In this document: positions 157 through 62,903 of the stretch, one piece after another | How positions within the stretch are numbered: position 1 is the stretch's first letter | Layout: each line of letters starts with the position of its first letter | Source: Boothiomyces macroporosus | Lineage: Eukaryota; Chytridiomycota; Chytridiomycetes; Rhizophydiales; Terramycetaceae | Assembly (NCBI GenBank): GCA_027604185.1 | Contig: JADGKB010000025.1 | Span: forward strand, 62,001-126,000 | DNA: 64,000 nt | Direction: 5' to 3' | Made by a program: the position numbers and the translations under genes | Notes under the pieces: model-generated | Told to the model about the DNA's origin: nothing | The model's database searches: none | The model's input: only the letters and a program-made list of their open reading frames with translations

Positions 157-1557
157 ATGAGCAAACCAGTGGTTGAAAAACAGTCGTCAGACGAAAGTAT
201 CAAGCTGGCTGAAAAGACACCACCAGTTACACCTCCGGAATGGAAAAATATACAGGAAATCGTCATTCATTCCTTAAAAGGAGCGACACGATCATTTCTC
301 GTTTCATTTTTGTTGCGTGGTGGAGTATCGTTCATAATCAGATTAATCGCTGTATATCGCAAAAAGTAAGATTCGCTAATGCAGGACGACATTATTTTCA
401 GCATTGAAAGCTTCGATGGGATTCGAAACGCAGCGATTTGCTAAAATGATTGCTAGTTTCTCCCTAACTTGGAAATTGATTTCCAACTTTCTTCATTTCA
501 AAACTAAAAAGAACTTGAAGCGTAATGGCGCTTTGGCAGGGGCGATTGCGGGATTGGCAGTGTTGATTGAATCGCCTGAAAACAGAGTTGCTATTGCACA
601 GCAATTCTCAATGAGGGCTTTACAAGGAGCGAAAAATGCTCTAAAGCAACGTAAATTGTTTTCTATGCCGCATGGAGATACTCTGCTCTTTTCACTAGCT
701 GTTGCTTCCATCATGTACGCTTACACCATGCATCCTGAGACCATCCCTAGAGAATGTATGCATTTTCTAACTATAGACTATAACTGGATAGTACAGCATG
801 GAAGAGTGCCAAAAGTAATTGTGGAGTTGAATCGGGAAAACACCAAAGGACATCAGGCGGGATACTTTCCAGCAAATATCGAAGGTTTAAAAGCAGCAAT
901 GGTTAAAACTCACGCAACCCCTGAAAATACGAAAAGACTCTTTGATTACATTGATGCGAATAACGGGATTGCTCCAAATTTGCCTTGCAGTGCAATTCAC
1001 GCGAGAGAAAATAGTTGCATTAAATATCAGGCCGGCGTATGGTACAAAACCTTTTTGGAAATGTCACCTGTATACTTTTCTTTGAATGCAGTGCCAACAT
1101 TGTTATTCAAATTCAAATCTGTGATTGAAAGGTACATTTTTCTAACTGCAGTCCCTTACAATCTCTTATTAGAATAATTAAATCAACCGCCATATCCTCT
1201 AGTTTCATTTCTACATATGTATACATGTTTCAAACAGGGCTATGTCTCCATAGAACCTTTTTCCCTCAGCAAAAAGAAAAGTACCTGTTTTACTATCTAG
1301 GAATAGTTACAGGGCTGTCCATCCTGATTGAACAAAAGCCAAAGAGGGCAGAGTTGGCTATGTATGTCCTACCAAAAGGCTTACAGTCTCTATATACATT
1401 GATGATTCAAAATGGTACGCTAATCCCAATTCCTCATTTGGATGTCATTGCAACCTGTGGAGCAATGAGCACAATCATGTCTCTTTACCAAACAGAACCA
1501 CACCAGCTATCTTCACTAATGTACAAGGTTATGAAAGGGGTAATTGGAACATACTAA
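157..1557 (+). CDS. TMEM135: TMEM135-like multi-pass membrane protein
   Basis: Exons 157-365, 385-1131 and 1152-1557 give 453 residues, close to the usual size of animal TMEM135. The introns are 19 nt (GTAAGATTCGCTAATGCAG) and 20 nt (GTACATTTTTCTAACTGCAG). Removing them restores one frame across what would otherwise look like two frameshifts. The duplicated TMEM135 pattern is visible: a Gly-rich start (SFLVSFLLRGGVSF), then GALAGAIAGLAVLIE, and later a second GIVTGLSILIE copy with PKGLQSLYTL. TMEM135 proteins sit in peroxisomal or mitochondrial membranes and affect lipid and mitochondrial dynamics; the role here is inferred from that family. The stop overlaps a TAATAAA signal. A possible extra 5' intron (GTGGCTTTTGATTTTCTTTAG is 21 nt in front of the ATG) would add only Met-Glu. 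Its 3' end faces MMSDH 32 bp away. Confidence 0.82.
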
Positions 1558-1589
1558 TAAATTCTTTTAAACATTCAACGGATATTGTA

Positions 1590-3136
1590 TTAATTCATCC
1601 AGTTTGCTTCTTTTGGGATTACCCACTTTGTGGTTGTCTTTCTTAGAGAAGTAAAGAACTCCATACCGCCATGGCCAGTGATATCAAAATCACCAAACTT
1701 GCTGCGGTTTATACCTCCAAATGAGAATGGTTCTCTAGGAACTGGGACACCAATATTCACACCAATCATTCCTGCAGAGAATCTTTTGGTGAACCACTCT
1801 GCAATAGCTCCGCTATTTGTATAGATACAAGCTACGTTAAAAAGGGATTACCAGCATTTCCATATGGGTTGGCATTTTCGATCGCTATAGCTTCTTCTTG
1901 ATTTTCGCATTCATAAATACTGATAACTGGCCCAAAGATTTCATCATGCAGAGCTTTGTCTTGTTTGTTTTTGTGCAAAATGACAGTTGGACCAACCCAG
2001 AACCCACCAGTGGCAACTAGTTTTTCGTCTTTTAACCAGGTACGTCCATCAAGCAATATTTGAGCTCCTGCTTTTTCACTTTCTTCAATATAACGAACTA
2101 TCTTGTCCCTTGAGGCAATATCAATGACTGGACCCATGGCGGATTTACCAGCTTGACCTGGCTGAAGTGCTTTTGCCTTTGCTACAATTGCATCCAATAG
2201 CTCAGGTTGTTTTCCTAAGGTTAAAAGTACGGATGCAGCCATACAGCGTTGGCCACTGCATCCAGTAAAGGATGCTACAATATCAGATGATGCCATATCA
2301 ATATTGCAATCCTTTGAAGCAATCAAATGATTCTTTGCTCCACCCAAAGCAATAATTCTCTTGTTTAATAATCTGCAGCGGTGAGATAATAATTCTGCAA
2401 CATGTGAAGTGCCAACAAAGGTGATTGCCTTGGTTTTAGGGTGATCGCAAAGCAATTGGACTGTATTTACTGTTCCGTTCACAATATTTACCACGCCTTC
2501 AGGGAACCCTGCCTCTTTGATTAACTCCATGGTTTTGTTCATTGTTAGAGGTACTTTTTCGGATGGCTTCAAGATAAATGTGTTTCCAGTTGCAATAGCA
2601 ATAGGAAGAGTCCACATTGGAACCATGAATGGAAAGTCTGGGTTAATTTGAATTACTGAAAGGAACAATAGATACAACTACACCATGCGGCCTTCTTACG
2701 TCTTGGCAATATACTCCTCTGGATACCTCAAGGGAATGTCCAAGAATGAGCTGCGGTAAGGAGAGGGCAAATTCTACAGTTTCATTTCCTTTGGCGATTT
2801 CAGCAAGAGCCTCTTCTTTAGTCTAATCAACGAATAACTACCTTGCCATGTTCAAGGACAATTAAATCTGCTAGTTCATCCTTGTGTTTAATCACTAATT
2901 GGTGGAATCTAATGAGATATTGCACTCTGTCTTTTACGGTACGATTGCTAGGTTAAATAAATCTACCTCCAAGCCAAAAAAGCTGTATGTGCCTTTTCTA
3001 CGGCATCGTTCACTTGATCTTGAGTGGATAATTGGACATGGGCAATTGTCTTTCCTGATCCAGGAGAGTGGACTGGGATTTTATCTCCTGCAACAGGAGT
3101 GTATTCGTTATTGATGAAATTGGTGATGGTTGCCAT
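1590..3136 (-). CDS. ALDH6A1: methylmalonate-semialdehyde dehydrogenase (ALDH6 family)
   Basis: Minus-strand exons are 3136-2967, 2947-2842, 2822-2657, 2637-1852 and 1831-1590, separated by introns of 19, 19, 19 and 20 nt; the protein is 489 residues. It is an NAD- and CoA-dependent dehydrogenase converting malonate or methylmalonate semialdehyde to acetyl- or propionyl-CoA in valine and pyrimidine catabolism. Supporting features are FPFMVPMWTLPIA, the FILKPSEKVP cofactor region and the catalytic-Cys motif GQRCMAAS. I start at the ATG at 3136 because an in-frame stop lies just upstream. The N-terminus (MATITNFINNEYTP) begins directly with the enzyme fold, so I see no mitochondrial presequence; animal homologues are mitochondrial. 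An unseen upstream exon could supply one. It is divergently oriented to RPS24 across about 640 bp. Confidence 0.9.
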
Positions 3137-3776
3137 TGGGAGATTCGAAAAGAAACAAAACCCGATGCGCTGCCGCAATTATAACCCATGATTTGTGACA
3201 TTCCCTCACTATTGAGAGTAGTACGAATGTGACACCCCAATGTGTGCTATTGAACTCTCATCAGAAGGTATGAAGGAACCAGCTCGCTTTGGACTATTAT
3301 AAAAGTTTTCTTGCTGGTCTATACCTACGCATTAACATAGCAGTCTATGAAATTCCACTTTATGACTACTACAAGAAACTTGTTATTCAATCGTGCTCAA
3401 ACAGCGTGGTATTTATCTTGTCATTAAAGGACTATGTTCCCTCACACGAATAGCTTAAATGCAGTCGCAAAACATAAGCATTACATAAGCAATTCATTAT
3501 CGCAAAACAGAAGCAATTCATTATCGCAAAACGGAAGCAATTCATTAGCGCAAAACAGAAGCAATTCATTATCGCAAAACAGAAGCAATTCATTAGCGCA
3601 AAACATAAACTTAATCATAATACTGAGTATACACTATCCAATATTGTTAACATTCGACTTATTTCAGTCCAATATTTTTCTCTCGCTTTTCATTGGCTGA
3701 AATTTTATTCTCCGAAAATTCAAGTGTGGCTTGTATGTAAAAATTTTAACAGAGCTCATTCAAGTTACCTTTGAAA
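3137..3776. promoter_or_regulatory. 640-bp divergent intergenic region MMSDH / RPS24
   Basis: This is the shared upstream region of two divergent genes, long for this compact window. It holds a five-copy 24-nt tandem repeat and otherwise no coding sequence I can support. A reading frame through the repeat exists only because 24 is a multiple of three. Confidence 0.5.
3488..3604. repeat. 24-nt tandem repeat, five copies
   Basis: Units begin near 3488, 3512, 3536, 3560 and 3584, with core AGCAATTCATTATCGCAAAA. Copies alternate mainly at one base (TTATCG or TTAGCG), and one has CGG in place of CAG. It lies in the MMSDH/RPS24 divergent intergenic region and is read here as a minisatellite, not as coding. 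Confidence 0.85.
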
Positions 3777-4191
3777 ATGTCTGATTCAGTCACCATTCGC
3801 ACTCGCAAATTCTTGACTAACCGTCTATTGCAACGCAGACAAATGATTATTGATGTAATTCACCCAGGACGCCCAAATGTTTCAAAAGCAGACCTCCGTG
3901 AAAAATTAGCTAAACTTTACAAATCTGAATCAGAAGTAATTGTTATTAATGTAGAACGTATTTGTATTTGGATTCCGTACTGCATTTGGTGGTGGTAAAT
4001 CAACTGGATTCGCTTTGATTTATGATACTCTCGACGCTGCAAAGAAGTTTGAACCAAAATACAGACTCATTCGTCACGGCCTTGGAGAAAAGAAGTCTGT
4101 TTCTTCTAAACAACGTAAAGAAAAGAAGAACCGTGACAAGAAGGTCCGTGGTACAAAGAAAGGAAAGAAGGAAGAAAAGTCCAAGAAATAA
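3777..4191 (+). CDS. RPS24: ribosomal protein eS24 (RPS24)
   Basis: Exons 3777-3935 and 3955-4191 encode 131 residues, the normal size for eS24 of the cytosolic 40S subunit. The start is the ATG of [12 protein letters not shown], matching the conserved N-terminus of the family. The 19-nt intron GTAATTGTTATTAATGTAG must be removed to join SESE to [19 protein letters not shown], the most conserved part of eS24. The C-terminus is Lys-rich ([11 protein letters not shown]), as usual. AATAAA overlaps the stop codon, suggesting a very short 3' UTR. Confidence 0.95.
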
Positions 4192-11152: not shown

Positions 11153-11241
11153 TTCGACGATTGACTTCACTTAATAAATGGTTGCGATTCATGGCGGTTT
11201 TAAATTATGTTTGTTTTGTTTACTTTTCTGTTTTACAATCC

Positions 11242-12379: not shown

Positions 12380-12452
12380 CAGGCGATTTAATAAATAGCA
12401 GATTGAATGAAATAATTTGAGATATATATTGGAAAGGCTCATTCATTCCCAT

Positions 12453-13488
12453 TTACAAGAAATAATCTGGAATCGCTTTTTTAGCAGGCATACCGCGCGA
12501 ATCCTATTATTAAACTCTATTACTTGTGGAGCAGCATCAAATATCTTGAAGTTCCTATTCAAATGCTCATCGAGCTCCAAAATTGCTGCAACATTTCCAC
12601 ATCTAAAAGTTAAACGAACTTACCTATAGCAATAATTAGGTGCAGACCATACTGTGACTATTGTATCTTTAAACATTAGTTTGTATCCTTCCATTACCAA
12701 CTGATGTGCTCTCGCTATTAATTCTATTTTATTCGCATGATTAAACTAAGTTAGTGCTAATTTACAGTATCTACAACATCTCCTCCAAACAAATATCCTG
12801 CTCCTCTTGGAGACAATCCCCATCCTTCAATGTCATCTGGATCCGACCACAACAAGTCACACATTGCACCTTCATGAGGCACTTCTTGCTTGCGGTCTAT
12901 GATTCTTATTTGATCCAGATTGTTGATCGAAGGAGAGAGGCCACCATGAACACAGAATATTCTGTCATCTATAATGGCTGATAGTGATAAATAATCAAAT
13001 ATTTCGCAGCAGTATCTCCAGACATTTACTGATCCGTATTTCCTCAAACACTCATCATAAAATCCGTAAACCTGTGTGATTTGCCGTGACTCGTGGTTTC
13101 CTCTAATTAAGGTAATCTGATTAACTAAATTGTACTCTATCTGGATATCGAACTTTTAAAGCAACTAGAAGCAGAAACGTTTCTACACTGTAAAATCCGC
13201 GATCTACAAAGTCACCCAAGAACAAGTAATTGGTATCAGGGCATTTCCCGCCCACTTTTAAAAGTTCTTTTAAATCAAAGAATTGCCCGTGTATGTCTCC
13301 GCATATCTGGTTAGAAATCATGATACTGTAACTGGTGCATCCACTTTCTGCACATTGCTCTCTTCCACCAGAATTTCCCTCGCTTTATTACACAGCTCTT
13401 TGACTTGGGATTCAAGTAGTATTTCGCATCGCAATAGCTGCTGTACTTGCCTAATATTAGCTTGGAATAACTTGTCTAAATCAGACAT
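12453..13488 (-). CDS. PPP4C: serine/threonine protein phosphatase 4 catalytic subunit
   Basis: Six minus-strand exons (13488-13327, 13306-13136, 13116-12766, 12745-12624, 12602-12524, 12503-12453), introns 20, 19, 20, 21 and 20 nt, 311 residues. The PPP metal-binding signatures are intact: [24 protein letters not shown], then [28 protein letters not shown] and the C-terminal PDYFL (the carboxymethylation tail shared by PP2A, PP4 and PP6) plus [13 protein letters not shown] point to PP4. PP4 acts in DNA-damage signalling and at microtubule-organising centres. It lies 79 bp downstream of RCE1 on the same strand; the two may be separately transcribed. Confidence 0.93.
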
Positions 13489-20604: not shown

Positions 20605-22948
20605 TTAAGGGCCATTATTTCTTCTTTCTCTTCTATCTAATCCACTACTTGTACCTCCTCTAAATTCCATGTATGCCATAGAGTCTCCTCCAGAAAGGGA
20701 TGAAATTTTTGATTCCAAACGGGTGAATTCAAAAGTTGGATTCAAGTCATCCTCCTCTTCTCCCTCTTCTTCAAACTCTTGTGTTTCTAATGATAAAAGT
20801 ACAGTATTCAGCAACGACAATTCTTCACTCAAGTGCTGATATACGCCATCTTCCATTCCTTGAATATTTGTAATAATTTTAAATTCATATCCTTGATCTA
20901 TTAAAAATTGTTGTCGCTTTGTCGCGTAATACATTTCTTCGGTATCCTTAGACACCAATGTGTAAAAGTAAGCATTCACTTTGGTAGCGCAATTCTTCTT
21001 TGGTCTCAGAATTCTACCAAGTCGTTGAGCTTCTTGCCTTCTGCTGCCAAAATGGCTTGAAATTTGTATCAAACAAGTTGCTTCAGGTATATCAATCGAG
21101 GTGTCTCCAATTTTACTGAGAAAGATGGTGTTTAATGCGGGATTGAACCTGAACTGCTGCAATAATCGAATACGCTCTGATTGTGATGTACCCCCATAGA
21201 GATATGGTTTCTGTAGTTTTTCGGCGTAATGCTAGCAATATAAGAAAATCAACTAACCTTTAGGGCAAATACATTATCAGAGAATACAATAATTTTATCC
21301 CCCTTGATATAAAATTCTAATTACCATTGCTTCATGAACAGCTATTAGATACTGGCATGCCTTGATTTTGTTTGGATTCATGGTGTACAGTAATTGCCTT
21401 TTTCTGAATGTCATACATCATTTTACCTGTATGGTTGTCGAAGATACTCTCTGTAAAATGGCTTGGTCATATCGCACCACACTTCATTGCACTATACGTT
21501 ACTGCACTAGTACTTGAACATTAGCAATGTATCCAAGAGAGGCAAGTTCCATCCAGTTTGCTTCAAACAACTTTGGGCCAATTAACCAGTTTAAATTATG
21601 AATTTTCTCATCCTCTCTCACCAACGTTGCTGTTAGTCCCAATTTTGCATGGGAGGAGATAATAGTTAAAGTTTTTTTGAACATGTCTTATTAATTTAGC
21701 AATACCTGCTGGTACCACATGCACTTCGTCCATCAATAGAAAGCCCCATTCTCTTGATTTGATGAATTCCAGCATGTTTTGAGCATCATAAGCTCTATTT
21801 CCACTGTGTGTAAGCATGGTATATGTTGATATTAAAACTCCTGCATCTCCTTCAAAGGGCTGTTTACACTCTGATGAAAATTTGGCGATATCCGAATCTT
21901 TAATTGTAGTCCAATATTTGAATTCACGAGTCCATTGCTCTACACTTAAACTATTATCAATTTGACAGTATACCTAGAGTTGCAAAGTACCAAGCAGCTT
22001 TTTTTGATGGTGCAAGCAGCAGTCACTCCCACAAGTGTCTTGCCAGCACCACATGGAAGAACGATGATACCAGATCTTGCTCTTCCATTTCCAAACATTT
22101 TCCCCAAACTCTTTTCTTGGTATGAACGCAACTTTGCATTTGGCTTCAAATCTTGATTAGCACCAAATACCTAAAGCCAGATGGGGATTGAAATGATCTG
22201 CGTGAAAGTCGTATTCCTCTAACATGGGATATGACAGCTCAGCACACTTTTTCTTTAAAGTTTCCACATCATTCTTTTTAATTTCAAATTTCCTGTCAGT
22301 CCTTATTTGTTCTAATAAGCTGTCAAGTGTAATAATATTGGTGTTTTCTCTCTCCTCCATGTTCCCGTCACTGGATTCCTCTTCCAAATCAATATCGTGG
22401 TCAAACACTGAAAATAAATCGATTGGAATAGCGTCTGCATTATTTGGCAGCGGAGTAACACCCAGTAAACTTGTTTCCAAAATACTTAATATATCAGCAT
22501 CTCCAAGTAACTTGTGCAGCAAAACATCATCTACACATTCTACAAAATATCGATTTTCAATTAAAATTAAGCGGACTTTTCCATAACAGGAAGTTGATGA
22601 TTTAATGAATTCCAATACTGAATCTGGTATTTCGGTTTTACAAAGTTTTTCCAATCCCTCGATAATTGTATCAGCATTCAATCCAACCGACACTGCCGCG
22701 TACAGTGAATAGGTTGTTAATTTGTATTCATGTATCCTAGCTGGTCTTGAAATAGGTTCTGCAATGGCCAACAATAAATCTTCCGCCTGCTGATGAATTG
22801 GGCTGAAGGCTGATATTAAGAATTATAAACCTTCCAATATAATCCTGTAATCTTCGTTTATCCACAGTGGACGAATTCCATGGTCAATTTTTAAGCTATT
22901 TTCAACCTCGTTTGAAAATTCAAGATCAGAGTCACTCTCAGTTTCCAT
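20605..22948 (-). CDS. ERCC3: TFIIH helicase XPB/Ssl2
   Basis: Nine minus-strand exons: 22948-22831, 22809-22171, 22151-21974, 21950-21706, 21686-21514, 21491-21427, 21403-21325, 21302-21258 and 21231-20605. Introns are 21, 19, 23, 19, 22, 23, 22 and 26 nt; the protein is 722 residues, slightly short for XPB. It is the SF2 3'-5' DNA translocase of TFIIH, used in promoter opening and nucleotide-excision repair. Visible: the N-terminal damage-recognition part ([18 protein letters not shown]), Walker A LPCGAGKT (about 287), DEVH box (about 386), [14 protein letters not shown], the helicase C-terminal half with [10 protein letters not shown], and [13 protein letters not shown] (motif VI). The C-terminal tail is acidic, then Ser/Gly-rich. 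It lies 47 bp downstream of UPRT on the same strand. Confidence 0.94.
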
Positions 22949-22995: not shown

Positions 22996-23690
22996 TTAAT
23001 GTGAGGTATTGAATAAACGATCTCCGGCGTCCCCCAATCCAGGATAAATGTATCCCCTGTCAGTCAATTCCTCGTCAATATGCCCAACGACGATATCAAT
23101 ATCAGGGTGAGCTTGTTGTAAAGCTTCTACACCCGATTTAGAAACAAGGATGGAGCAAAATACGATTCTCTTTAATCCCCAGTCTTTCAAAATATTCACT
23201 GCTGCAACAGCGGTACCTTGGTTACACTTGGCCATTACCTGCAGTTGCAATCATAGGATCGACAATGAAGCCAACGTCTAATTTGCACTCAGATGGCAGC
23301 TTGTTGTAGTATTCGACTGGCAAAAGGGTTGTCTAGCGTTATATCAGTTTACCTTGTCACGGAATAATCCCAAGTGATGGACAGTGGCCCCTGGTAGCAA
23401 GGTCAAGAAGGCTATCGTTAATAATTTGTACAATCAATCATTCCTTGCCCAGCACGCATAATTGGGAACACTCCAATTTCATCTTTCAACTTGATACCCG
23501 TATAAGGACCAATTGGGGTGTGCAATTGCTTTGTGGTTACGACATCTAGCCTTTCAGTAGCTGTAATGCCAAGGATTAGAGTTAATTCGCTGACAAGAGC
23601 TCTGAATTCTCTTGATTTCAGTTTTTCATCACGAACGCTAGACAATTTCTCCAAGAATATCGGATGGTTAACGATTCTGATCTGGCCCAT
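22996..23690 (-). CDS. UPRT: uracil phosphoribosyltransferase
   Basis: Minus-strand exons 23690-23432, 23411-23353, 23332-23239 and 23216-22996, introns 20, 20 and 22 nt, 210 residues. It converts uracil plus PRPP to UMP. The type is that of bacterial Upp: IVNHPIFLEKLSSVRD at the N-terminus, GVFPIMRAGQGMI, the PRPP loop VDPMIATAGTAVAAV, and the C-terminal YIYPGLGDAGDRLF that binds uracil. In the URC route the enzyme is counted as URC6, feeding the degradation pathway. It is divergent from URC1 across about 615 bp, so co-regulation from the shared region is plausible. AATAAA overlaps the stop. Confidence 0.95.
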
Positions 23691-25913: not shown

Positions 25914-25985
25914 TTCTAATAAAATAGTTTTGATTCGACTTGGTTTGTTTATTCATGTAAACAAATTGGAAACGAATTTTCCAAA

Positions 25986-26670: not shown

Positions 26671-26778
26671 AATAAATGAGTATCCGATCCAATAATTGTA
26701 TTCCGCACTAGTGTAACATTCCTCTTTGAGCATATCCGTAGTCACGCTGCCGCTGGTGGCTTTCCCGCAATTCAACAA

Positions 26779-37500: not shown

Positions 37501-40500
37501 GAATGGGAATCACAACTTCGGGTAATTCTTGATTAACAATAGTTTTATTGGGACAGGGACGTTGATGAACTATTAGCAGTTCAGGCTAACGGAACTTTTG
37601 AATATGGATATGAATATATGGGTCTGAACGGCCGGCTGGTAATCACGCCTTTGACTGATCGATGCTACTTGACCCTAACTTTGGCTCTTTCAATGAAATT
37701 AGGAGGAGCACCTGCCGGACCTGCTGGAACAGGCAAGACTGAAACCGTGAAAGATCTTGCAAAAGCATTGGGACTTTTATGTATGGTGACAAACTGTGGT
37801 GAAGGAATGGATTACCAAGCCATGGGTAAAATCTTTGCCGGTTTGGTGCAGACAGGGGCTTGGGGCTGTTTTGATGAATTTAATAGAATAGAGCTGGCCG
37901 TGCTATCAGTTATCTCTGCTCAAATCAAAACCATCCAAAACGCCTTAGTTACTGGGTTAAAGAGATTCCAATTTGAAGGACATGAAATTTCTTTGGACAA
38001 AAAGACTGGTATTTTCATTACTATGAATCCCGGGTATGCAGGTAGAACAGAGTTGCCTGACAATTTGAAGGCACTTTTCAGGCCAGTGGTTATGGCAGTC
38101 CCGGATTTGGAATTGATTTGTGAAATCATGTTGTTCTCTGAAGGATTTACCTTGGCAAAAAGTTTGGCAAAGAAAATGGTCGTATTGTACAAACTAGCAA
38201 AAGGGCAGCTTTCAAAGCAAAATCACTACGACTTTGGTCTGCGTGCTTTAAAATCTGTCCTGGTTATGGCTGGTGCTTTGAAGAGAGGATCTCCAGATCT
38301 GAATGAAGATGTGGTATTGATGCGAGCTCTTCGTGATATGAATTTGCCTAAATTTGTATTTGAAGATGTTCCACTGTTTTTAGGACTGATTTCGGATCTA
38401 TTCCCCGGTTTGGACTGCCCTAGAGTTCGATATCCCAACTTTAATGATGCTGTCGAAGAAGTGCTAAGAGATGGACAGTATTTAATTGTTCCAGAGCAAG
38501 TAGATAAGGTTATACAATTATATGAAACTATGCTTACTAGACATACTTCAATGGTTGTTGGGCCAACAGGTGGTGGAAAAACTGTGGTTATTGACGCTTT
38601 GGCAAAAGCGCAAACAAAGCTTGGAATAATTACAAAGTTGTATGTCCTCAATGCAAAAGCGGTATCTGTTGCTGAGCTTTACGGTGTATTAGACCCAGTA
38701 ACTCGTGATTGGACCGATGGATTGCTCTCCAATATTTTCAGAGAGGTCAACAAGCCTATCGGAGATAAAAAGGAACGCAAGTATATTGTATTTGATGGGG
38801 ATGTCGATGCTGTATGGTACGTAGTTTACTAAAATTAGGGTTGAAAATATGAATTCTGTAATGGACGACAATCGTCTCTTAACATTACCAAATGGCGAAC
38901 GTATTAGATTGCAAAAACATTCCTCCTTACTTTTTGAAGTGGGAGATTTACAGTACGCTAGTCCAGCTACCGTCTCAAGATGCGGTATGGTCTACATGGA
39001 TCCAAAGAATTTAGGATATGTGCCTTATTTCCACAAATGGGCAAATGCGAGAACATCAAAGCTAGAAACTGAATCCATGCTGAAGTTCTTCAACAAATAC
39101 ATAAATCCATTAACGGAATTTATCATGGAAGGAATGTTTGAAGGGTTCATTGGAGAGCCATTGAAAAGAGTTATCCCTATCAATCCATTAAGCATGGTTG
39201 TTCAACTATGTTCCTTGATTGAAAGCCACTTCAATGATGGCAAAGCCATCACCCAGGAAAATGTCATTGAAAATATTTTCATACAGTCAATTGTTTGGTC
39301 CTTGGGTGCCTCCATTCTAGAAGACGATAGAGGAAAGTTCTCAGATGCAGTAAAAAAGCTTTCTGAATATCCTTTGGTGAATACAAATATGGCAATTAAT
39401 TTAGGCCAACTTCCAGGAAGTGACAAGTCTTTGTATGATTATTTCTTTGATTTGGACGAGCTAAAGTGGGTATCATGGGATCAATATGTACCTGCCTATG
39501 AACACAATAGGCAGACTCCTTTCCACAAGATATTAGTGCCTACGATGGACACTGTTCGCCATACCTGGCTCTTGGAAAAACTGGTTAGGAACAAAAAGCC
39601 AGTCTTATTCGTTGGCGAGGTTGGCACGTCTAAAACGGTAACGGTGGCAAATTTCTTGCGCAGTCTACCACCAGATCGAAATATCATTTTGAATATCAAT
39701 TTTTCCTCCCGTACCAGCTCCCTAGATGTTCAAAGAAATCTGGAAGCAAATGTGGAAAAAAGAACCAAAGATACCTATGGTCCGGCTGGTGGGAAAAGAC
39801 TGTTGGTGTTTATTGACGACCTTAACATGCCTGCTAAAGATACCTACGGTACCCAGCAACCAATTGCTCTGCTTAAACTCTTAATTGAAAAAGGTGGATT
39901 ATACGATCGCGGAAAGGAATTAAATTGGAAATACTTGAAGGACTGCCAGTTCTTATCAGCCATGGGAACACCGGGAGGAGGTAGAAGCGAAATAGACCCG
40001 AGATTTGCCGCCTTATTTGCCGTATTTAACATTACTTTCCCAAAGGATGTCAGTTTGCTTAGAATTTACTCGAGTATAATTGAAGGGCAGACTTCAATAT
40101 TCTCTGAAGAGGTAAAGAAAAGCGCAGCTAAGCTGACACAACTCACTTTACAATTGTTTTATGAAATTTCCAAAAGCCTTATGCCCACACCAAGTAAATT
40201 CCACTATATTTTCAATCTTAGAGATATTTCTAGAATCTATGAAGGTATATGCTTGGCAACACCTGACCACTTTGACAAATCCAAGCAATTCGTACGTTTA
40301 TGGAGAAATGAATCGTTAAGAGTGTTCCACGATAGACTTGTTACAGAGCAAGATAAAGACTACGTCAACAAGCTTATTAATAGACTTGTACTAGATAATT
40401 TTGAAGCCAACGAAGAGTACATTACACGAAATCCAATTTTGTTTGGCGACTTTAGACACGCCCTCCAGGAAGAAGCTGCCCGGCTATATGAAGATTTGCT

Positions 40501-43500
40501 TGATTTCGCTGCTGTTCGATCGATATTCTTGGAAATACTCGAAGAATACAATGAAAAGCACAATAGAATGAATTTGGTCCTGTTTGAAGATGCACTCGAT
40601 CATTTAACTAGAGTACATAGGGTGATTAGACTAAACAGGGGTCACGCCTTACTCGTTGGTGTTGGAGGTTCTGGAAAGCAGTCGCTTACCAGACTAGCAT
40701 CATTCACTGCCGGATATCAAGTGTTTGAAATTACACTTAGCAGAGGCTACGGAGAACCAGAATTCAGGGAAAATCTAAAAACACTGTATGGTATGCTGGG
40801 GTCAGGAAAGAAGGTTGTATTCATGTTCACGGATGGGCATGTCGTTCAAGAAGGGTTCTTGGAATTGATAAACAACATGTTGACAACTGGAAGTGTACCT
40901 GCACTGTATGCTGACGATGAAAAGGATGCAGCATTATCTTCTGTTAGGGATGAAGTGGTAAAATTAGGGCTGGCACAAACAAAAGAAGTGATGTGGCAGT
41001 ATTTTGTCAACAAGTGTGCTGATAATTTGCACATTGTCTTATGCATGTCACCACAAGGGGACAAGCTCAGGGAAAGATGCAGATCGTTCCCAGGTTTGGT
41101 AAATAATACAATGATTGATTGGTTCCCGCCTTGGCCAGAACAAGCTTTATACTCGGTCGCAAACGCATTCTTAAAGGATGAAGGTATTCCCTCGGAAAAT
41201 AGAAGTGCCATAGTTTCTCATATGGTTGGTGTACATTTGTCGGTTGGAGTATTTTCATTGGAATTTCAACAAAAGTATCGCAGGGCTAATTATGTCACAC
41301 CCAAAAATTACCTGGACTATATCAGCACATATAATAAGCTCCTGCAAGATAATAGAGATTTAAATGGAAAGCTTTGTGCAAGATTGGAGTCGGGTCTCGA
41401 AAAGTTGGAGGAATCTTCACAGCAGCTGGAAGTACTGAACAAGCAGTTGGCCGAGCAAAACATTGCAGTAAAGAACAAAACTGAGGCATGCAACAAGCTA
41501 TTGGAGGTTATTACCGCGAATACTGCAGTTGCCGAGGAGAAAAAATCTCTTGCAGAGAAAAAGGAAATAGAACTGGACGCCCAATTGGTGCAGATCGCAA
41601 AAGATAAGGAAGAAGCTGAGGCAGCCTTGGCTGAAGCACTTCCAGCATTGGAACAGGCGCGTCTTGCCCTGGCAAATTTATCTTCATCTGAAATTACAGA
41701 AATTAGATCCTTTGCAAAACCACCAAAAGAAGTGCAAAAAGTTTGCGAGTGCATCTGTGTAATCAAAAATATAAAAGATGTTTCCTGGAAGAGTGCCAAA
41801 GCAATGATGTCGCAAAGTGACTTCAAGTCATCTCTTCAGAGTTTGGATGTAGATGCCATATCATCAAATCAAATTAAATTGGTAAAGAACATTTTGCGTG
41901 AAATGGATGTTTCAGTATCAAGAATGCAAGAAATTTCCAGTGCTGGGGCAGGTTTATTGACCTTTGTCTTGGCTGTTGTCGGTTATTGTAACGTGGCAAA
42001 GCAAATTGCCCCAAAGCGAGCGGCTGTAGCTTCTCTCGAAAAGAACTTGGCCCTGTCTAAGCATGAATTCGCAAAGTTAACCAAAGAGTTGAAAAGTTTA
42101 AGCACTGAATTGGAAACACTTCAACGGGATTTCCACACAGCAAAAGCGGAACAAATAGAACTCAAAGAAATGGCTGAAGTGATGGAAAGAAGATTAATTG
42201 CTGCAGACAAGCTGGTTTCTGGATTAGGATCTGAAAGAATCAGATGGGGAAAGGACTTGATCCTACTGAAGGAACAAAGAACTCAACTTCTTGGAGATTG
42301 TTTGTTAGTCTCTGGATTTTTAAGTTACACGGGTGCATTCAACTGGGAACTCCGAAATGAACTAATTTACAAGCGATGGCTAAAAGATTTAACCGAAAAA
42401 CAAGTTCCAATAAGCTCCAACTTTAAAGTTGAGAAAATATTGGTGACAGACGTAGAACTTAGCAAATGGGCTCAAGAAGGGTTACCAGCTGACGAGCTTT
42501 CCATTCAAAATGGTATTTTAACAACCAAAGCATCCAGATTTCCACTTTGTATTGATCCACAACAGCAAGCGCTAAACTGGATTAAGAAGAAAGAAGGTCC
42601 AAACAATTTGAAAGTTTCGACTTTTAACGATCCTGATTTCATCAAACAGCTTGAAATGGCAATGACTTATGGGTTTCCATTCTTGTTTGAAGATGTAGAC
42701 GAGTACATTGACCCAGTTATTGACAATTTGCTCGAAAAAAATGTTCGGGTGGTTGGACCGAGAAAGTTTATCGTTTTGGGCGACAAGGAAGTTGACTTTG
42801 ATCCAAATTTCAGATTGTATCTTGTATCGCGTTTGGCAAACCCAACTTATTCACCAAAAGTATTTGGCTCAGCAATGATCATCAACTATAGTGTCACATT
42901 CAAAGGGCTGAGTGACCAACTATTGAACGTTGTCGTTGGAAATGAAAGGAAAGAACTGGAAGAACAAAGAGAAAGATTGGTTATTGAAATGAGTGAGACA
43001 AAAGCCTTACTCAAAAACTTTGAAGATACACTACTGCGAGAATTAGCATCTTCAACAGGTTATTTGTAACTGACGTTAGGTCTTATGCTGGATAATGTTG
43101 ATCTAATCAGAACTTTAGAGGATACCAAATCAAAAGCAACTGAAATCGCAGGTAAACTAATCTTGGCAAATCAAACATCGCAAGAAGTCGAAATTTCAAG
43201 AGACGCATATCGCCCTGCAGCAACTTGCGGGGCAGTATTATTCTTTGTTCTGGCGGAATTGTCGACAATCAATCCCATGTACGAATACTCACTATCAGCA
43301 TTTTTGGAAGTGTTTATATCTTCTCTTCATCGAAGCAAGCCTGATCCTGTGTTGCAGAAACGTTTGGTAAAGATCAAGGACACCCTAAAGTACTCTGTGT
43401 ACAACTATGCTTGTACTGGTTTGTTTGAAAAGCATAAACTGATGTTCTCTTTCCAGATGACTATTAAGTTGTTGGAAGTTGAAGGGCAAATAGATGCTAG

Positions 43501-45699
43501 TGAATTGAATTTCTTCTTGAAGGGTGATATATCGCTGGAGCAGCCATCAACACCCAAACCATTTAGCTGGATTATGGATCAGGGATGGAAAGATCTTTTG
43601 AAACTGGCCACGATAAATCCAAACTTTGGAATGATTCCTACACATCTTAAAGCTAATGAGCAAGAATGGAAGACTTGGGCAAACCTCGATGCTCCAGAAA
43701 CTGTTCCACTGCCAATGGAGTATTCCGAAAGGCTCACTTTATTCCAACAGCTATGTTTGCTAAGATGTTTCAGAATCGACCGAGTATATAATGCTGTTAC
43801 CAACTTTGTGATTCAAAATGTAGGAGAAAAGTACGTTATGCCCCCAGTCATCAATTACAAAAACATCTTTGACCAGTCTTCTCCAACCAGTCCAGTGGTG
43901 TTCATCCTAAGTCCAGGTGCTGATCCGCAAAGCGACTTGCAAAAACTTGCAGAAACCCTGGGATTCGGTGGTTCCAGATTGAAATTCCTTTCATTAGGTC
44001 AAGGACAGGCCCCTATTGCCTTGCAATTGCTTGAAACTGCTGTAGCAAGAGGCCAGTGGTTAATGTTACAAAACTGTCACTTGCTAGTTGGTTGGTTGCG
44101 AACCTTGGAAAAAACTCTGGAAAAGATTGACAAACCACACAAAGATTTTAGATTGTGGTTAACTACTGAGCCTACCGAGGGATTCCCAATCGGAATTTTA
44201 CAAAAGTCGCTAAAGGTAGTGACTGAACCCCCAAATGGACTGAAACTAAACATTAGAAGCAGCTACTTTAAGTTAACGGAAGAAGTGCTGGCAGATTGCA
44301 ACCATGAAGCCTTTAGACCACTTGTTTATGTATTGGCATTTTTCCACGCAGTAGTACAAGAAAGAGGAAAATATGGAAAATTAGGATGGAGTGTTAAATA
44401 TGGTAACAGGTTGCTAATTTAGATTTCAACGAATCAGATTTTAGAGTGTCCACCAGTATTTTGAGAACCTACTTGAACAAGACTGCGACTTCAAAGGAAG
44501 GTAAAATTCCATGGACCACTCTCCGTTACTTGATTGGAGAGACTATTTATGGAGGAAGAGTGACTGATGATTATGATAGACGTATCTTGATGTGCTATCT
44601 TGAAGAATACCTTGGAGACTTCATTTTTGACACTTTCCAACCATTCTTCTTTTTCGCAAACCATCAATTCCAATACAAAGTACCAATGGTTGGATCAAGA
44701 GATGATTACATTACCAGTATAGATGTACTTCCACTAACTAATGCTCCTGATGTATTTGGCTTACATCCAGATGCTGAAATCGGATATTTGACAAATGCAG
44801 TAAAAGATATGTGGAGCCAGCTAGTTTCATTGCAGCCAAGAACTTCTGATGGTGCAGGAGGTATTAGCAGAGAAGAGTTTATAGCAAATATTGCATCTGA
44901 TGTTCAAGTCAAGCTTCCTGTTCCATTTGACATTCCAAGAATCGCAAAAGCAATAGGGACTCCAACACCAACACAAGTAGTACTTTTACAGGAATTGGAG
45001 AGATGGAATATGTTGGTTGATAGAATGGTCAGCTCGTTAAAAGACCTTAGACGAGCACTAAAGGGTGAAATTGGTATGAGCGCAAAATTAGATGAACTAG
45101 CGAATGCTCTATTCAATGGAGTACTGCCAAATTCTTGGAGAAGCTTGGCTCCCCAAACAGAAAAGGGTTTGGGAGGATGGATGATCCACTTTGAAAAAAG
45201 ATACCAGCAATACTCCTCGTGGATAAAGAACGGCGAGCCACTAGTCATATGGCTGTCGGGCCTTCAAGTGCCTGAGGCTTACATTACTGCCTTGGTTCAG
45301 ACTACTTGCAGAAAGAACATGTGGCCACTAGATCGCTCGACATTGTACACTCAAGTTACACACTTTACAGACCCTAAAGATATAACTGAACGACTAGCAT
45401 CCGGGTGCTACGTCCAGGGACTATACTTGGAAGGAGCAGGATGGGATATCAAGAAGGGAAACCTAGTTAGGTTAGAGTCTGGCGGAAGGTTAGTTCAGGA
45501 GTTGCCAATATTAAGAATCATTCCAATCGAATCACATAGGCTGAAATTGGTGAATACATTCAGGACACCTGTTTATACGACACAGCTAAGAAGGAATGCG
45601 GCTGGTGTAGGCTGGGTATTTGACGCTGATCTTTCCACTAGTGACCACATAAGTCACTGGATCCTACAGGGTGTATGCCTAGTACTAAACACTGATTAA
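31590..45699 (+). CDS. axonemal dynein heavy chain
   Basis: Eleven exons: 31590-32075, 32096-32273, 32294-32736, 32757-33014, 33037-33987, 34008-34754, 34777-37521, 37543-38816, 38839-43058, 43080-44402 and 44423-45699. Introns are 20, 20, 20, 22, 20, 22, 21, 22, 21 and 20 nt; the protein is 4,633 residues. The tail has [17 protein letters not shown]-loops: AAA1 [10 protein letters not shown] (about 1995), AAA2 GPTGGGKT (about 2276), AAA3 GEVGTSKT (about 2619), AAA4 GVGGSGKQS (about 2968). Coiled-coil stalk with microtubule-binding tip about 3190-3500, then AAA5-6 and the C-terminal domain. [14 protein letters not shown] in AAA1 and the tail motif suggest the inner-arm DNAH10/1-beta class, a guess without alignment. 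It drives flagellar beating. TTAATAAA overlaps the stop. Confidence 0.93.
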
Positions 45700-51288: not shown

Positions 51289-53053
51289 ATGAATCCCAAC
51301 GTTATTGTAATGAGTAGGAATTTTTTAACGTAGATACAAACATGGAAAGACAAAGCGGTCACAAAGCGCAGCTTTCCAACATCCAAGCCGCAAAAGTAAC
51401 TCTTCTCTAACCAAGACTATTGCAGATATTATCAGATCTTGTCTTGGTCCACGAGCAATGTTGAAAATGTTGCTTGATCCTATGGGTGGCATCGTCTTGA
51501 CCAACGACGGAAATGCCATTTTAAGAGAATGTGAGGTTGCGCACCCTGCCGCCAAATCAATGATTGAATTGTCAAGAACCCAAGACGAAGAAGTAGGAGA
51601 CGGAACCACTTCAGTTATTATTCTCGGTAATCTTGATTTCATTGTAGCCGGTGAAGTTTTGGCTAGCTCGTTGCCTTTCCTTGATCGCCATATTCACCCA
51701 ACGATTATTATTTCTTCATTCAAAAAAGCACTTGAAGACGGTTTGCAAATTTTGAAAAACATCTCTGTTCCTATTAATATTAACGAAAAATCTGAAATGA
51801 TCAAGTTGATCAAGGCTTCTATTGGTACCAAAATGGTATCTGCATGGAGTGATCTCATGTGCGGTCTAGCTTACGATGCTGTAAAGACTGTCGTATTGGA
51901 AAAGAATGGCAAGAAGGAAATTGATATCAAAAGATATGCACGTGTCGAAAAGGTAAGCCAGATCATAGATCTATCAACAGAACAGGTTAACAATAGATTC
52001 CAGGAGGTACTGTTGAAGAATGTAAAGTGCTTGATGGAATTATGATCAACAAGGATGTCACTCACCCTAAAATGAGAAGAAGAATTGTAAATCCTAGAAT
52101 TGTTTTATTAGACTGCCCACTTGAATACAAAAAGGGAGAATCCCAAACCAATGTAGAAGTTACTGATGAATCCCACTGGGCCCGTTTGTTGGAAATTGAA
52201 GAAGAACAAGTCAAGCAATTGTGTGATGATATTATCAGAGTAAAACCAGACTTGGTATTCACTGAAAAGGGTGTGTCGGATATTGCGCAGCATTACTTGA
52301 TGAAAGCAAACATTACTGCTATCAGACGTACCAAGAAGATGGACAACTTCCGTATTGCTAGAGCAACTGGCGCAACCATTGTCAACAGACCTGAAGAATT
52401 AAAAGAATCAGATGTCGGCACTGAGTGTGGATTATTCGAAATTAAAAAAATCGGAGATGAATACTTTACTTATTTGGTTGAATGCAAGAACCCAAAAAGC
52501 TGTACCATTCTTTTGCGTGGTCCAAGTAAAGACATTCTCCAAGAAATCGATAGAAACTTGCAAGATGCTATGGCAGTCGCACGTAACGTTTTGTTTGAAC
52601 CATTGTTATGCCCAGGTAACTATAATTAACAAAGGTGGTGGTGCTAGTGAAATGGCTGTTTCTGCTGGTTTGATTGAAAAGGCAAAGACTTTGGAAGGCG
52701 TGAGCCCATTGCTTTACAAAGCAGTAGCCAACTCTTTACAAGTAATTCCACGTACCTTGGTCCAAAACTGTGGTGGAAATGCAATCAAGACATTGACTGA
52801 ATTGCGTGCCAAACATGCAGCAAAAGAAACCTCTTGGGGAATTGACGGCACTACTGGCAAAATTGTTGACATGCACTCCTATGGAGTGTGGGAGCCTTAC
52901 GCTGTAAAATCCCAAACATTGAAGACTGCTATTGAAAGTGCTTGTTTATTACTTCGCGTTGATGATATTGTAAGTGGTGTTAGCAAGAAAGGAGCTCCAG
53001 GACCTAGCGCTCAACAACAAATTGAACAAAATGAAATGATGGCTGAACAATAA
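51289..53053 (+). CDS. CCT3: chaperonin TCP-1 gamma subunit (CCT3)
   Basis: Six exons (51289-51313, 51334-51395, 51416-51626, 51648-51952, 51997-52615, 52635-53053), introns 20, 20, 21, 44 and 19 nt, 546 residues. It is one of eight subunits of the cytosolic CCT ring that folds actin and tubulin. Group II chaperonin motifs: CLGPRAMLKMLLDPMGG, LTNDGNAIL, the ATPase DEEVGDGTTSV, VTHPKMRRRIVNPRI (gamma-specific) and GGGASEMAV. The third intron is 21 nt without a stop, so retention would insert seven residues; homology (SVIILAGEVL) favours splicing. The 44-nt fourth intron is an outlier required to join RVEK to IPGGTVEECKV. Confidence 0.95.
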
Positions 53054-55757: not shown

Positions 55758-56275
55758 GAAAAGTAATATGCTCTAGTGTAATTAATAAACCACGTTGTAT
55801 TATTTTCAAAGAAAACATTATTGATCCGTTGCGAATGCTTCCACCCATCAACGAACAAACGTAATATTTCATGTATAGAGTAAAAACTGCCTTAATCGAA
55901 TACCACACCCATTCAAGGTAATTCTAGATTTTCATACTGAACATATGACCATTCTGAAGGAGCTATATTTGATCAGGGAATCTTTCAGGATAGAGATACT
56001 GCAAGATCTGCAATTGGTCAAAGTTCAGTGTAGGTCTAAAAACATGCTTGAAAGAGAAAGCGAAGTTAAAAGTAATATTGAAAGCTTGGAAATACGCTCA
56101 TCAACAGTGCGAGGAAATGCTCATTTCGCTAGATTGTAAACAAAGGAAAAGTTCCAATGAATTACTTCAACACCAATGAAAATGAATTGCATTTGACCTG
56201 GTGTCTCGCTTTCAGGATTTGGTTTCCATCATCATCATTATTATTACCTAATTTACACGTAAATTGATTTTTCAA
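55758..56275. other. 518-bp spacer with a possible small coiled-coil ORF
   Basis: It separates the two tandem membrane-protein genes. A plus-strand frame at 55945-56139 (64 residues, starting MTILKELYLIRESFR, Glu/Lys-rich, helical) could be a small gene, but there is no homology I can name. A minus-strand frame near 55702-55908 overlaps coding sequence and is likely chance. AATAAA for copy 1 is near 55784. Confidence 0.35.
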
Positions 56276-58754: not shown

Positions 58755-60313
58755 ATGAACATCGTCAAAAGGTACATGTCTACCTTTAAAAAGATCACAG
58801 AGGCGGACATTACTCATTTCAAATCAATCCTAAACGACTCTGTCATTACTTCAGACTTGGAATTGTACAACAATGACTGGATGAACAAGTACAAGGGAAA
58901 CTCATCTGTTGTCTTGAGACCCAAAACGACGGAGCAAGTGTCGCAAGTCATGAAATATTGTTTCAAAGAAAACATCGCTGTTGTTCCGCAAGGAGGAAAT
59001 ACTGGGTAATATTGACTAATTCAGTCTTGTTGGAGGAAGCGTGCCTGTTAATGATGAAGTTATTTTGTCTACTCAGCTAATGAACAACATTAGGGACTTT
59101 GACCATGTATCAGGAATCTTGAATGCGGATGCCGGGTGTATTTTGGAGACTTTGGATAACTGGCTGCAAGAAAGAGGTTACATTATGCCTCTCGGTATCT
59201 ATTATTAACATTAGATTTGGGAGCAAAAGGAAGTTGCCACATTGGTGGAAATGTAGCTACAAATGCGGGTGGTATTAGATTGTTGCGGTATGGATCATTA
59301 CACGGAACAGTTTTGTCCTTGGAAGTTGTATTGCCTGATGGAACAATTATGCAACTAGGGAAGCCATTAAGAAAAGACAACACTGGGTACGATTTGAAAC
59401 AGCTGTTTATTGGATCAGAAGGAACCTTGGGTATCATAACTGGAGTTTCTATTTTGACTCCACCTAAACCGCAATCCGTTACTGTAGCATTGTTTGGATT
59501 GGACTCTTATGAAAAAGTACTGGAAGCCTTTAAAGCATCAAAGAAGAACTTGGGTGAAATCATGAGTGCTTTTGAATTTTTTGATCAGCCATCTCTCGAT
59601 TTGGTAAAGAAGCACTTGGGACTAAGGTAAGGTGTCTATTCTCTTTGAATAGCTCAATTAAGCAAAGCAGTGCTAACGATAGAGATCCATTTGAAGGGCA
59701 ATCACCTTTCTATTGCTTGATTGAAACCCAAGGGATGAATAAGGAACATGATGATCAAAAAATAGAAAAGCTAATTGAAAATCTAATGGAAAACGAAATC
59801 GTTAGTGATGGTGTATTGGCAATGGATCAATCCCAGCAGACTCACTTTTGGAAAATAAGGTAAAATAAACTAAAAGGAAGAGAAGGTATTCCTGAAGCGT
59901 GTGCAAAAGAAGGAGGAATGTACAAGTATGACTTGAGTGTACCAGTATCTCAATTGTACGAAGTGGTGCTGAACATGCGTCAGCATTTACGAGAAAAGGG
60001 CTTATACCATCCAGAAAAAGAAGCACCGATTACAAATGTAGTCGGTTTTGGTCATGTAGGTGATGGTAACTTGCATTTGAATATTCTTTCTACGGGAAGA
60101 ACTAAAGAACTCGAAGAAGCCATTGAACCATACGTATATGAACTTACACGCTCTTACGAAGGAAGCATTAGTGCTGAACACGGCCTTGGACTAATGAAAG
60201 CTCCTTACTTGGAATACAGCAAAGATATTGAATTCATCAATTACATGAAAATGATAAAGAAAGTGTTTGATCCAAAAGGAATCTTAAATCCATACAAGTA
60301 CTTGCCTCAATAA
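58755..60313 (+). CDS. D2HGDH: D-2-hydroxyglutarate dehydrogenase (FAD)
   Basis: Exons 58755-59005, 59025-59194, 59215-59626, 59653-59859 and 59881-60313, introns 19, 20, 26 and 21 nt, 490 residues. It oxidises D-2-hydroxyglutarate (yeast Dld2/Dld3 type) to 2-oxoglutarate. The FAD-binding PCMH fold is visible: VVPQGGNTG followed by LVGGSVPV across an intron, then [15 protein letters not shown] and [10 protein letters not shown]. The C-terminal domain has [15 protein letters not shown] (metal-binding His) and [12 protein letters not shown] basic N-terminus ([13 protein letters not shown]) suggests mitochondrial import. AATAAA overlaps the stop. Confidence 0.92.
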
Positions 60314-61109: not shown

Positions 61110-61206
61110 CTTCAATAAAAAGTATTAAAATATCATGAAACAATGATTGGAGGGCATAAACAGCTCGTTTATTTGAGGCCCCTTGAAATTACTAAAAACA
61201 TTAAAT

Positions 61207-62903
61207 TTACATTGGTGAAACACTGCTGTTCTTGAACCAGCTATTGTTAGATATACAGTACGTTTTGATGCGGTTAAACACCGTGACGTCGTCCACAGCA
61301 TTCTTTGGCAAATTCTCCCTGCAAGTAATTCCCCAACTCTCCAAGTCCTGAACAATAGCCTTCCCAACATCTATAAACCGCAGCACATCTGTAGGAGTCC
61401 TACTAATCTGATAGGTCCCCCCATTAATCCCGCCGCCTAACTGAATAGTACTTGATTTAGTCTTCCAATCGTCATTTAAAAGCATATCTCTGTTCAAGGC
61501 TTCAAGGAATCCTTGTAGTTCTGGCTCATGCACTTGGGTGATTTCATCAAACGATGAACTGAATTTGCTAGTTGCTAGCCTCCTTCTTTCTTGCAACTGT
61601 TTCTTCAAATGTATAAATATTTGTAGAGCGTTTGAGGTCATGTTACGATGCAGCACTCTGCAAGCGAGTATTTTTACATGTCGGGGTCTTAGTACCATTC
61701 CCTGTTCCAAGAAATTATCTAGCAAATCGTGCAAGGTTTGGTCTGCAACGGCTCTGCTTAATGCATCATCAAAGCAGGCAACTATGTTAATATAAGGTAC
61801 TAGAAAGACGATGGTGTGGACCAAAAGTATCAAGGATCCAACTCCAAATAAAGTAAGGGCGAGATTTAAGATATGGTCTTGTGACGGGAAAGTTTGGATG
61901 TACTTTAGTATATGTGCATGTTTTACTGGGATCATCCAGCAAAGCTCGTTCAATAGCTTCATCTGAAATATTAAAGTGGTGAATAATCCTTTGGACGGCA
62001 GTGCTATCCCAACTAATATTCAATGATTCCATCCTGTTCAAGTAAGGGCCAAATAATTCATAAATTGTATCTTCAGCCAACACCTTTAGTTTGGTTTTTG
62101 ATACTAGATTGGCTAGAATTGAAAAGACGATTGGTCGTGCTCCAGCGATTCCTTTCTTTATAGTTCGATCTGTCAAATTGAATCCGACATCTAGAAAGTT
62201 TTGAACGTATTTTGTAGACATGGCATGTTCAAGCACCCTATCCATCACTCCTTCTTGGAATTCAGTTATATCCAAGCCGGTATAGCGCTGTAAATCGGAT
62301 ATCAAGACCAAGTCTATATTTCCCAGCAAATAGAGGGATTCAGCAACAATCCTATGGCTTTGATCAAGTGTAGGGAAAAATCCAAATTTAGTAATCAGGG
62401 TTTTTAGTTTTTCAATATTTTCCTTTGAATTTGGGTTGGGCACTCGAACAAGTCTTTCGAATTCGCGATGATCCTTATATTAGATAACTGTACATTTAAT
62501 TTGAAATTGGCGAGTTCCTTGTAAGAATTAAAGGCCTGGTTTACGAAAAACACGTAGAGAGGGGTTGATGGAGGGTTGTGCGTTTTAGATTGAAACTACG
62601 GTTAGGTATTAGTACATCTTGAACTGATAGCTGCGCAAGGAATCTGGGAAACAGTGCACCGTTTTTCAGCATTATAGATGTGATCGTAACGTCCAAAATA
62701 GATCTATGATACGTGTACGTTTTGTATAGCGCTTGGCCCTTTCCATAATATTTTAGAAACAAGATCGCCCTGTTTGTTGAATCGGTCGACAGTTTGTTGC
62801 AGTACTTGGAAGCGATGGAGAAGATCTGGGCGGAGTCTGGTGTCAAAAAGGTAAAGATTAAACTTGATATTTCATATGGTAGCGAGTTGAAACTTGGATC
62901 CAT
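61207..62903 (-). CDS. F-box-like protein of unknown function
   Basis: Minus-strand exons 62903-62616, 62595-62494, 62473-61801 and 61781-61207, introns 20, 20 and 19 nt, 545 residues. The N-terminus reads FNSLPYEISSLIFTFL, an F-box-like start (Leu-Pro-x-Glu-Ile), which in other proteins binds Skp1 in SCF ubiquitin ligases. The remainder is helical without a recognised substrate-binding repeat. Splicing joins three frames cleanly, which supports the model. The substrate, if it is an F-box protein, is unknown. Confidence 0.62.

Follow-up and report, generated by a model that had tools for sequence, protein, structure and literature searches.

Sequence evidence for a genome-wide class of spliceosomal introns near 20 nucleotides in a Terramycetaceae chytrid

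Genes on a 64,000-nucleotide (nt) stretch of the chytrid Boothiomyces macroporosus (contig JADGKB010000025.1, positions 62,001 to 126,000; hereafter the window) are interrupted by segments that mostly measure 19-26 nt. We assign a probability of about 0.95 to the reading that these segments are real introns, predicted to be removed by the major spliceosome, and that they belong to a genome-wide class near 20 nt in a fungus. An initial annotation had proposed spliceosomal introns of this size in a flagellated fungus, and the sequence tests described here support that proposal. The genome sampled comprises 15.2 Mb in 216 contigs, with the window corresponding to C25:62001-126000.

Introns were placed by two routes, the first of which used homology only. 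A spliced aligner that knew only GT..AG ends, a 12-nt minimum and one fixed penalty, and that held no branch-point or length preference, was supplied with homologous proteins for CCT3, XPB and Isy1, and with PDB chains for PP2A, uracil phosphoribosyltransferase, D-2-hydroxyglutarate dehydrogenase, Prp8 and methylmalonate-semialdehyde dehydrogenase. It placed 35 introns, spread over eight genes; the length is 19-26 nt in 32 of them (nine of 19 nt, eleven of 20, six of 21, three of 22, two of 23 and one of 26), and the other three measure 44, 46 and 56 nt. Six window genes hold 29 of these introns (CCT3 five, XPB eight, the PP2A-like gene five, uracil phosphoribosyltransferase three, and the two dehydrogenases four each; Table 1), while Isy1 contributes four and a 414-residue stretch of Prp8 two from outside the window. 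Identical introns were recovered with 5/5 homologs for CCT3, with 4/4 for Isy1 and with 4/7 for XPB, where the three that diverge are gene models from the closest relatives (P0241, P0242 and P0243). The Prp8 stretch aligned with PDB chain 6zym_A gap-free across both of its introns. Retention of 34 of the 35 introns would lead to a frame shift or a stop. An aligner 'intron' at 59979-60014 (36 nt, GTC donor), which lies at a gap relative to the human protein, was dropped from this set. As a separate observation, the homology-placed introns above 30 nt are the 44- and 56-nt entries of Table 1 and the 46-nt intron at L031:1761-1806, and none of the 35 measures 27-43 nt; there may be a length gap or a second, longer class, judged here on small numbers.

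The second route was ab initio, using a purpose-written gene finder trained on long open frames and applied to the window plus twenty 10-kb stretches, 264 kb of the 15.2 Mb. The intron length prior was kept flat at 14-120 nt, and donor and branch-site weights were re-estimated in each round. Among genes scoring at least 25, this flat-prior run called 199 introns, of which 144 measured 18-26 nt, three were shorter and 52 longer; in the last flat round 174 of 248 introns fell at 19-23 nt. A further 16 measured 41-60 nt and 43 measured 61-120 nt, and of these long calls many are doubtful. After the introns of the learned model had been cut out, the same search called three introns, one of them at 18-26 nt; this control shares training with the gene finder, so it bounds false calls in exons and does not prove splicing. 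With learned lengths, 247 of 286 introns were 30 nt or shorter, and 238 of those 247 fell at 19-23 nt (58 at 19 nt, 93 at 20, 57 at 21 and 21 at 22). On the 264-kb sample, the genome thereby displays the narrow, genome-wide class below about 30 nt that characterizes a tiny-intron genome.

Within the window, gene calls scoring at least 5 contained 84 introns in 21 calls; 70 were 30 nt or shorter, all at 19-26 nt, part of them in weak gene calls that may be wrong. Twenty-five of the 29 homology-placed window introns were also called ab initio, and four added by homology raise the total of introns up to 30 nt to 74, all at 19-26 nt. Among the 14 longer ab initio calls, homology backs two (44 and 56 nt) and contradicts two others, which lie in XPB (100 and 93 nt); the gene finder also misses some window genes, the first gene for example. 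The initial annotation had counted 100 introns, 97 of them at 19-26 nt, with 19, 20 and 22 nt the commonest lengths. Its size class stands, its count was not reproduced, and its ranking holds for 20 nt, which is followed by 19 and 21 nt, with 22 nt rarer. In our opinion the 21-nt introns were undercounted there because an intron of this length can be free of in-frame stops, as is the third CCT3 intron of Table 1. The motif GTA-N4..12-TAAY-N1..4-AG occurs 81 times on the two strands of the window; 20 simulations under a first-order Markov model averaged 27.6 occurrences (range 18-39).

The anatomy of the introns is that of the U2 type. Nearly all have a GTA donor; the GT..AG ends were imposed by both programs, yet homology alone restores conserved protein with them, and a branch-site motif lies close to the 3' end. 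In 32 of the 35 homology-placed introns the branch A is found 4-7 nt before the last G (27 with a strict YTRAY motif and five with a looser TRAH), which confirms the earlier remark that the branch point sits nearly on the 3' splice site and, as a consequence, leaves no space for a polypyrimidine tract downstream of the branch site. In short introns the A of the YTRAY-like branch site falls at about position 14-17, and in the ab initio set it occupies position 14-16 in 211 of 247 introns. In the three longer homology-placed introns the distance from branch to 3' end stays at 6 nt and the extra length lies only upstream; hence, the machinery seems to require no fixed length, only a small minimum.

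The components expected for U2-type splicing are encoded in the genome. A small nuclear RNA search that covered U1, U2 and U6 returned two U2 loci above cut-off, one U6 locus, and one U1 locus at 68.8 bits, slightly below the cut-off of 69.5. U2 carries GTGTAGTATCTGTTC, the U1 5' end reads ATACTTACCTGG, and U6 has ACAGAGA on its strand (read by eye); compared with the consensus, the U1 5' end, the U2 branch-pairing stretch and the U6 motif are like those of other eukaryotes. A search directed at eight splicing proteins found all eight (Slu7, Prp18, SF1, U2AF65, Cwc25, Isy1, Prp8 and Yju2), and the decay factor Upf2 is also present. With 8/8 found, the loss of many splicing proteins that typifies a reduced spliceosome of the mikrocytid or microsporidian kind is not apparent among those sought. 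The U2, SF1, U2AF and Prp8 genes, which the initial annotation had singled out for inspection, are accordingly all present; of the proteins, only the 414-residue Prp8 stretch was aligned with solved relatives.

Several points weigh against our interpretation. The support is sequence-based, and the sample amounts to 264 kb and a few loci of 15.2 Mb. The 52 flat-run introns above 26 nt are mostly unverified and some are wrong. The initial weights of the gene finder leaned to GTA and TAAY, so its motif and branch statistics are partly circular; the flat-prior lengths are not. U2AF65 reached 230.7 bits in an exon-by-exon search, below the whole-protein cut-off of 310.3 for its family, and three homology-placed introns (21303-21324, 21232-21257 and 51627-51647) have no branch motif at the usual place. 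A comparison of intron-like motifs in exons with synonymous shuffles gave seven sense-strand YTAAY motifs at 18-23 nt against 12.7 expected, with 7 of 100 shuffles as low; other lengths, the antisense strand and several control motifs showed depletion that was equal or greater, and the test was rejected as not specific. Similarly, a shortage of introns with lengths divisible by three, as a sign of nonsense-mediated decay, is not claimed: a rough correction leaves the 21-nt introns without a shortage, and the excess of stops in ab initio introns of such length (50 of 60, against 114 of 187 others) is uninformative because the gene finder hardly sees those without stops.

Among the alternatives, the one that survives best, though we consider it highly improbable, is that only a subset of the segments is spliced and many are often retained or regulatory, so that a genome-wide 20-nt class is overstated. 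The three introns devoid of a branch motif at the usual place and the single stopless intron of a length divisible by three, among the 35, are compatible with it; retention would nevertheless break conserved genes, because each of the other 34 contains a stop or causes a frame shift. Segments that shift frame or carry stops in many genes could also come from errors of assembly or from recent insertions, but the segments possess common donor, branch and acceptor motifs, their removal joins conserved protein, and the publicly available XPB models from close relatives show disturbances at or next to the corresponding positions, which reduces this explanation to a negligible chance. Nor do we give any real credence to segments kept in the mRNA and skipped by ribosomes in the manner of the byp elements of some yeast mitochondria, whose sizes overlap those seen here, given the GT..AG ends, the branch site that matches the pairing stretch of U2, and a genome that encodes U1, U2 and U6.

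Taken together, a model emerges in which ordinary U2-type introns have shrunk genome-wide to mostly 19-26 nt in a Terramycetaceae chytrid. Such introns would be recognized by intron definition, the whole intron being treated as one piece; U1/U6 pairing (positions 1-6) would come within a few bases of the U2 branch helix, and the lariat would form a loop of about 14-17 nt. As its 3' splice site such an intron would use the AG close behind the branch site, at a distance too short to hold a polypyrimidine tract.

Judged by CCT3, Isy1 and XPB, the host is a true chytrid of the Rhizophydiales, family Terramycetaceae, very close to Boothiomyces; together with the taxonomy, this agrees with the flagellated, fungus-like host suggested initially. 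The closest CCT3 is that of Terramyces sp. JEL0728 (94%), and the closest Isy1 (98%) and XPB (95%) are those of Boothiomyces sp. JEL0838. In a CCT3 tree of 21 rows, for which the first eight residues of the query were not DNA-derived, the window sequence joins Terramyces (100/100) within a clade with Globomyces and Kappamyces (100/99), followed outward by Gorgonomyces and then by Bd, Homolaphlyctis and Entophlyctis.

The public XPB models of these relatives bear on the same introns. Counting gaps of six or more residues, the Boothiomyces JEL0866 protein is without residues 452-514, spanning junctions 451 to 514; Terramyces is without 292-312, 394-409, 452-474 and 500-514, and JEL0838 without 302-309. 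For every such gap, one or both edges coincide with a junction or fall no more than three residues from one (junctions 311.7, 393.3, 451, 472.7, 499 and 514); edges 292, 302 and 409 lie away from junctions. The XPB proteins of Globomyces, Entophlyctis, Bd and Gaertneriomyces are complete at those segments; three of these four are gapped elsewhere (4-16 and 709-722, 173-178, and 155-167). The simplest reading of this one gene is that the relatives probably share these tiny introns and that some exons were misjoined during gene calling. Arguing against a general failure of gene callers, the Terramyces CCT3 and JEL0838 Isy1 models fit all introns backed by distant homologs. These data suggest faulty joins in some public Terramycetaceae protein models, and comparative studies of early fungi would be affected by them.

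In Stentor, according to the excerpted text of PMC9505925, the Isy1 tip that reaches into the spliceosome active site is non-conserved, and the N-terminal glycine motif of Cwc25 is reported lost. Here, the Cwc25 gene model begins MGGGDLNLKKSWHP and retains the motif (GGG); the Isy1 N-terminus, read from an uncertain first exon, is non-conserved as in Stentor. Among 120 listed Isy1 homologs, 77 start with MAR and a K soon after, 36 start at or near the M of SMLxRF and are probably cut short, and seven differ. Two of these seven (P0148 and P0227) are canonical save for the first residue and three (P0125, P0186 and P0218) resemble fragments or other starts; the remaining two are Boothiomyces JEL0838, MAPKTLAQKQEANILKKYDG, and Globomyces JEL0801, MANNQKEKQKSVVHRF. 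In place of the widespread start MAR[N/S].EK...L.RF, this chytrid and Boothiomyces JEL0838 have another sequence, and Globomyces departs from that start in part. When the canonical start was looked for by spliced search in L031:1-1450, which takes in about 1.2 kb of upstream sequence, the score was 24; 20 shuffles gave scores of 19-30. At the Isy1 5' end (L031:1259-1307) two tiny-intron-like units stand in tandem, where the protein of the nearest relative fits one 49-nt intron; this intron arises only with that protein (P0121) and was excluded from the homology set. One speculative idea, which we think unlikely, is that a remodelled active-site tip of the branching factor Isy1 was either a requirement for the shrinkage of introns to about 20 nt or was permitted by it. 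If true, tiny-lariat splicing would carry a convergent molecular signature in this tip, and the Cwc25 glycine motif need not change at an intron size of about 20 nt. The Isy1 divergence is treated as a lead only, because it concerns two lineages and an uncertain first exon.

Table 1. Introns placed in the window, by gene.
Feature	Position	Strand	Support
CCT3, 20 nt	51314..51333	+	5/5 homologs agree
CCT3, 20 nt	51396..51415	+	5/5 homologs
CCT3, 21 nt, no in-frame stop	51627..51647	+	5/5 homologs; missed ab initio; if retained, 7-residue insertion relative to homologs
CCT3, 44 nt (longer)	51953..51996	+	5/5 homologs; branch site 6 nt from 3' end
CCT3, 19 nt	52616..52634	+	5/5 homologs
XPB/Ssl2 helicase, 21 nt, GTT donor	22810..22830	-	7/7 homologs
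XPB, 19 nt	22152..22170	-	7/7 homologs
XPB, 23 nt	21951..21973	-	5/7 homologs; P0241 and P0243 gene models deviate here
XPB, 19 nt	21687..21705	-	6/7 homologs
XPB, 22 nt	21492..21513	-	5/7 homologs
XPB, 23 nt	21404..21426	-	4/7 homologs (P0244, P0245, P0254, P0256)
XPB, 22 nt, no standard branch motif	21303..21324	-	5/7 homologs
XPB, 26 nt, GTT donor, no branch motif near 3' end	21232..21257	-	4/7 homologs
PP2A-like catalytic subunit, 20 nt	13307..13326	-	spliced alignment to PDB chain 2ie3_C
PP2A-like, 19 nt	13117..13135	-	spliced alignment, 2ie3_C
PP2A-like, 20 nt	12746..12765	-	spliced alignment, 2ie3_C
PP2A-like, 21 nt	12603..12623	-	spliced alignment, 2ie3_C
PP2A-like, 20 nt	12504..12523	-	spliced alignment, 2ie3_C
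Uracil phosphoribosyltransferase, 20 nt	23412..23431	-	homology
Uracil phosphoribosyltransferase, 20 nt	23333..23352	-	homology
Uracil phosphoribosyltransferase, 22 nt	23217..23238	-	homology
D-2-hydroxyglutarate dehydrogenase, 19 nt	59006..59024	+	homology
D-2-hydroxyglutarate dehydrogenase, 20 nt	59195..59214	+	homology
D-2-hydroxyglutarate dehydrogenase, 56 nt (longer)	59627..59682	+	homology
D-2-hydroxyglutarate dehydrogenase, 21 nt	59860..59880	+	homology
Methylmalonate-semialdehyde dehydrogenase, 19 nt	2948..2966	-	homology
Methylmalonate-semialdehyde dehydrogenase, 19 nt, ends ambiguous	2823..2841	-	ab initio, ends chosen by motif; aligner prefers overlapping 16 nt, 2816-2831
Methylmalonate-semialdehyde dehydrogenase, 19 nt	2638..2656	-	homology
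Methylmalonate-semialdehyde dehydrogenase, 20 nt	1832..1851	-	homology
Presumed ribosomal protein S24-like gene, 19 nt	3936..3954	+	ab initio; spliced translation uninterrupted from 3777
First gene of the window, probable intron, 19 nt, GTAAGATTCGCTAATGCAG	366..384	+	segment located by position
Presumed dynein heavy chain gene, ten predicted introns of 20-22 nt	31590..45699	+	ab initio

Other features were observed in the window. A gene at 4373-6960 (+) with reverse-transcriptase motifs (QGIPQGSILSTLLCN and YVDDFL) presumably resembles telomerase reverse transcriptase. At 22996-28086 the homology-checked uracil phosphoribosyltransferase adjoins genes resembling GTP cyclohydrolase II (URC1) and URC4, an arrangement that we take to be that of the fungal uracil-catabolism cluster. 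Two neighbouring genes for similar membrane proteins at 53460-58514 (+) appear, by eye, to be a tandem duplication, and 10040-12410 seemingly holds another such pair (by eye). The interval 17900-20560 is AT-rich and free of called genes, long for a dense genome, and an intergenic short tandem repeat with a unit near cgcaaaacagaagcaattcatta occupies 3457-3605 (by eye).

Introns of 18-21 nt are known from chlorarachniophyte nucleomorphs, and microsporidia are known to have a few short introns, of 23 nt or more. In the ciliates Paramecium and Nyctotherus introns are around 25 bp, as the excerpt of PMC5014332 gives them; ciliate and nucleomorph introns resemble those described here in size class and belong to unrelated, non-fungal lineages. 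For fungi, the excerpted survey PMC8476143 describes chytrids as retaining many introns, as this chytrid does, and in that excerpt the short example is Cryptococcus neoformans (mean 63 bp), with nothing near 20 nt; the excerpt of PMC5364385 on Bd and Bsal gives intron counts and no lengths. Among the matches listed in a search of the open-access literature, with subscription papers and preprints outside its scope, there was no report of tiny introns in chytrids.

The tiny-intron genomes named in the initial annotation (nucleomorphs and some ciliates) form an incomplete list: the excerpts of PMC10245619 and PMC9505925 report introns of 16-17 nt in the mikrocytids Mikrocytos and Paramikrocytos and of 15-16 nt in Stentor coeruleus, so the chytrid introns, though short, do not set the lower limit. 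Mikrocytids and this chytrid have in common very short introns whose motifs are conserved; for M. mackini, the excerpt of PMC10245619 lists 224 introns and only 17-19 identified splicing proteins, whereas here 286 introns were called in less than 2% of the genome and 8/8 splicing proteins sought were found. Ciliates, nucleomorphs and parasitic mikrocytids have supplied the tiny introns known so far; a chytrid family with cultured strains, as strain names imply, and no sign of a stripped-down spliceosome would offer a fungal system for learning how U1, U6 and U2 share 20 bases. Set beside Stentor as excerpted in PMC9505925, the chytrid shares the GTA start, a tail of 5 nt beyond the branch A, pairing stretches conserved in U1 and U2, and a non-conserved Isy1 N-terminus, and differs in its longer introns (commonest length 20 nt), its clear branch motif, the Cwc25 N-terminal GGG that it keeps, and its fungal identity.

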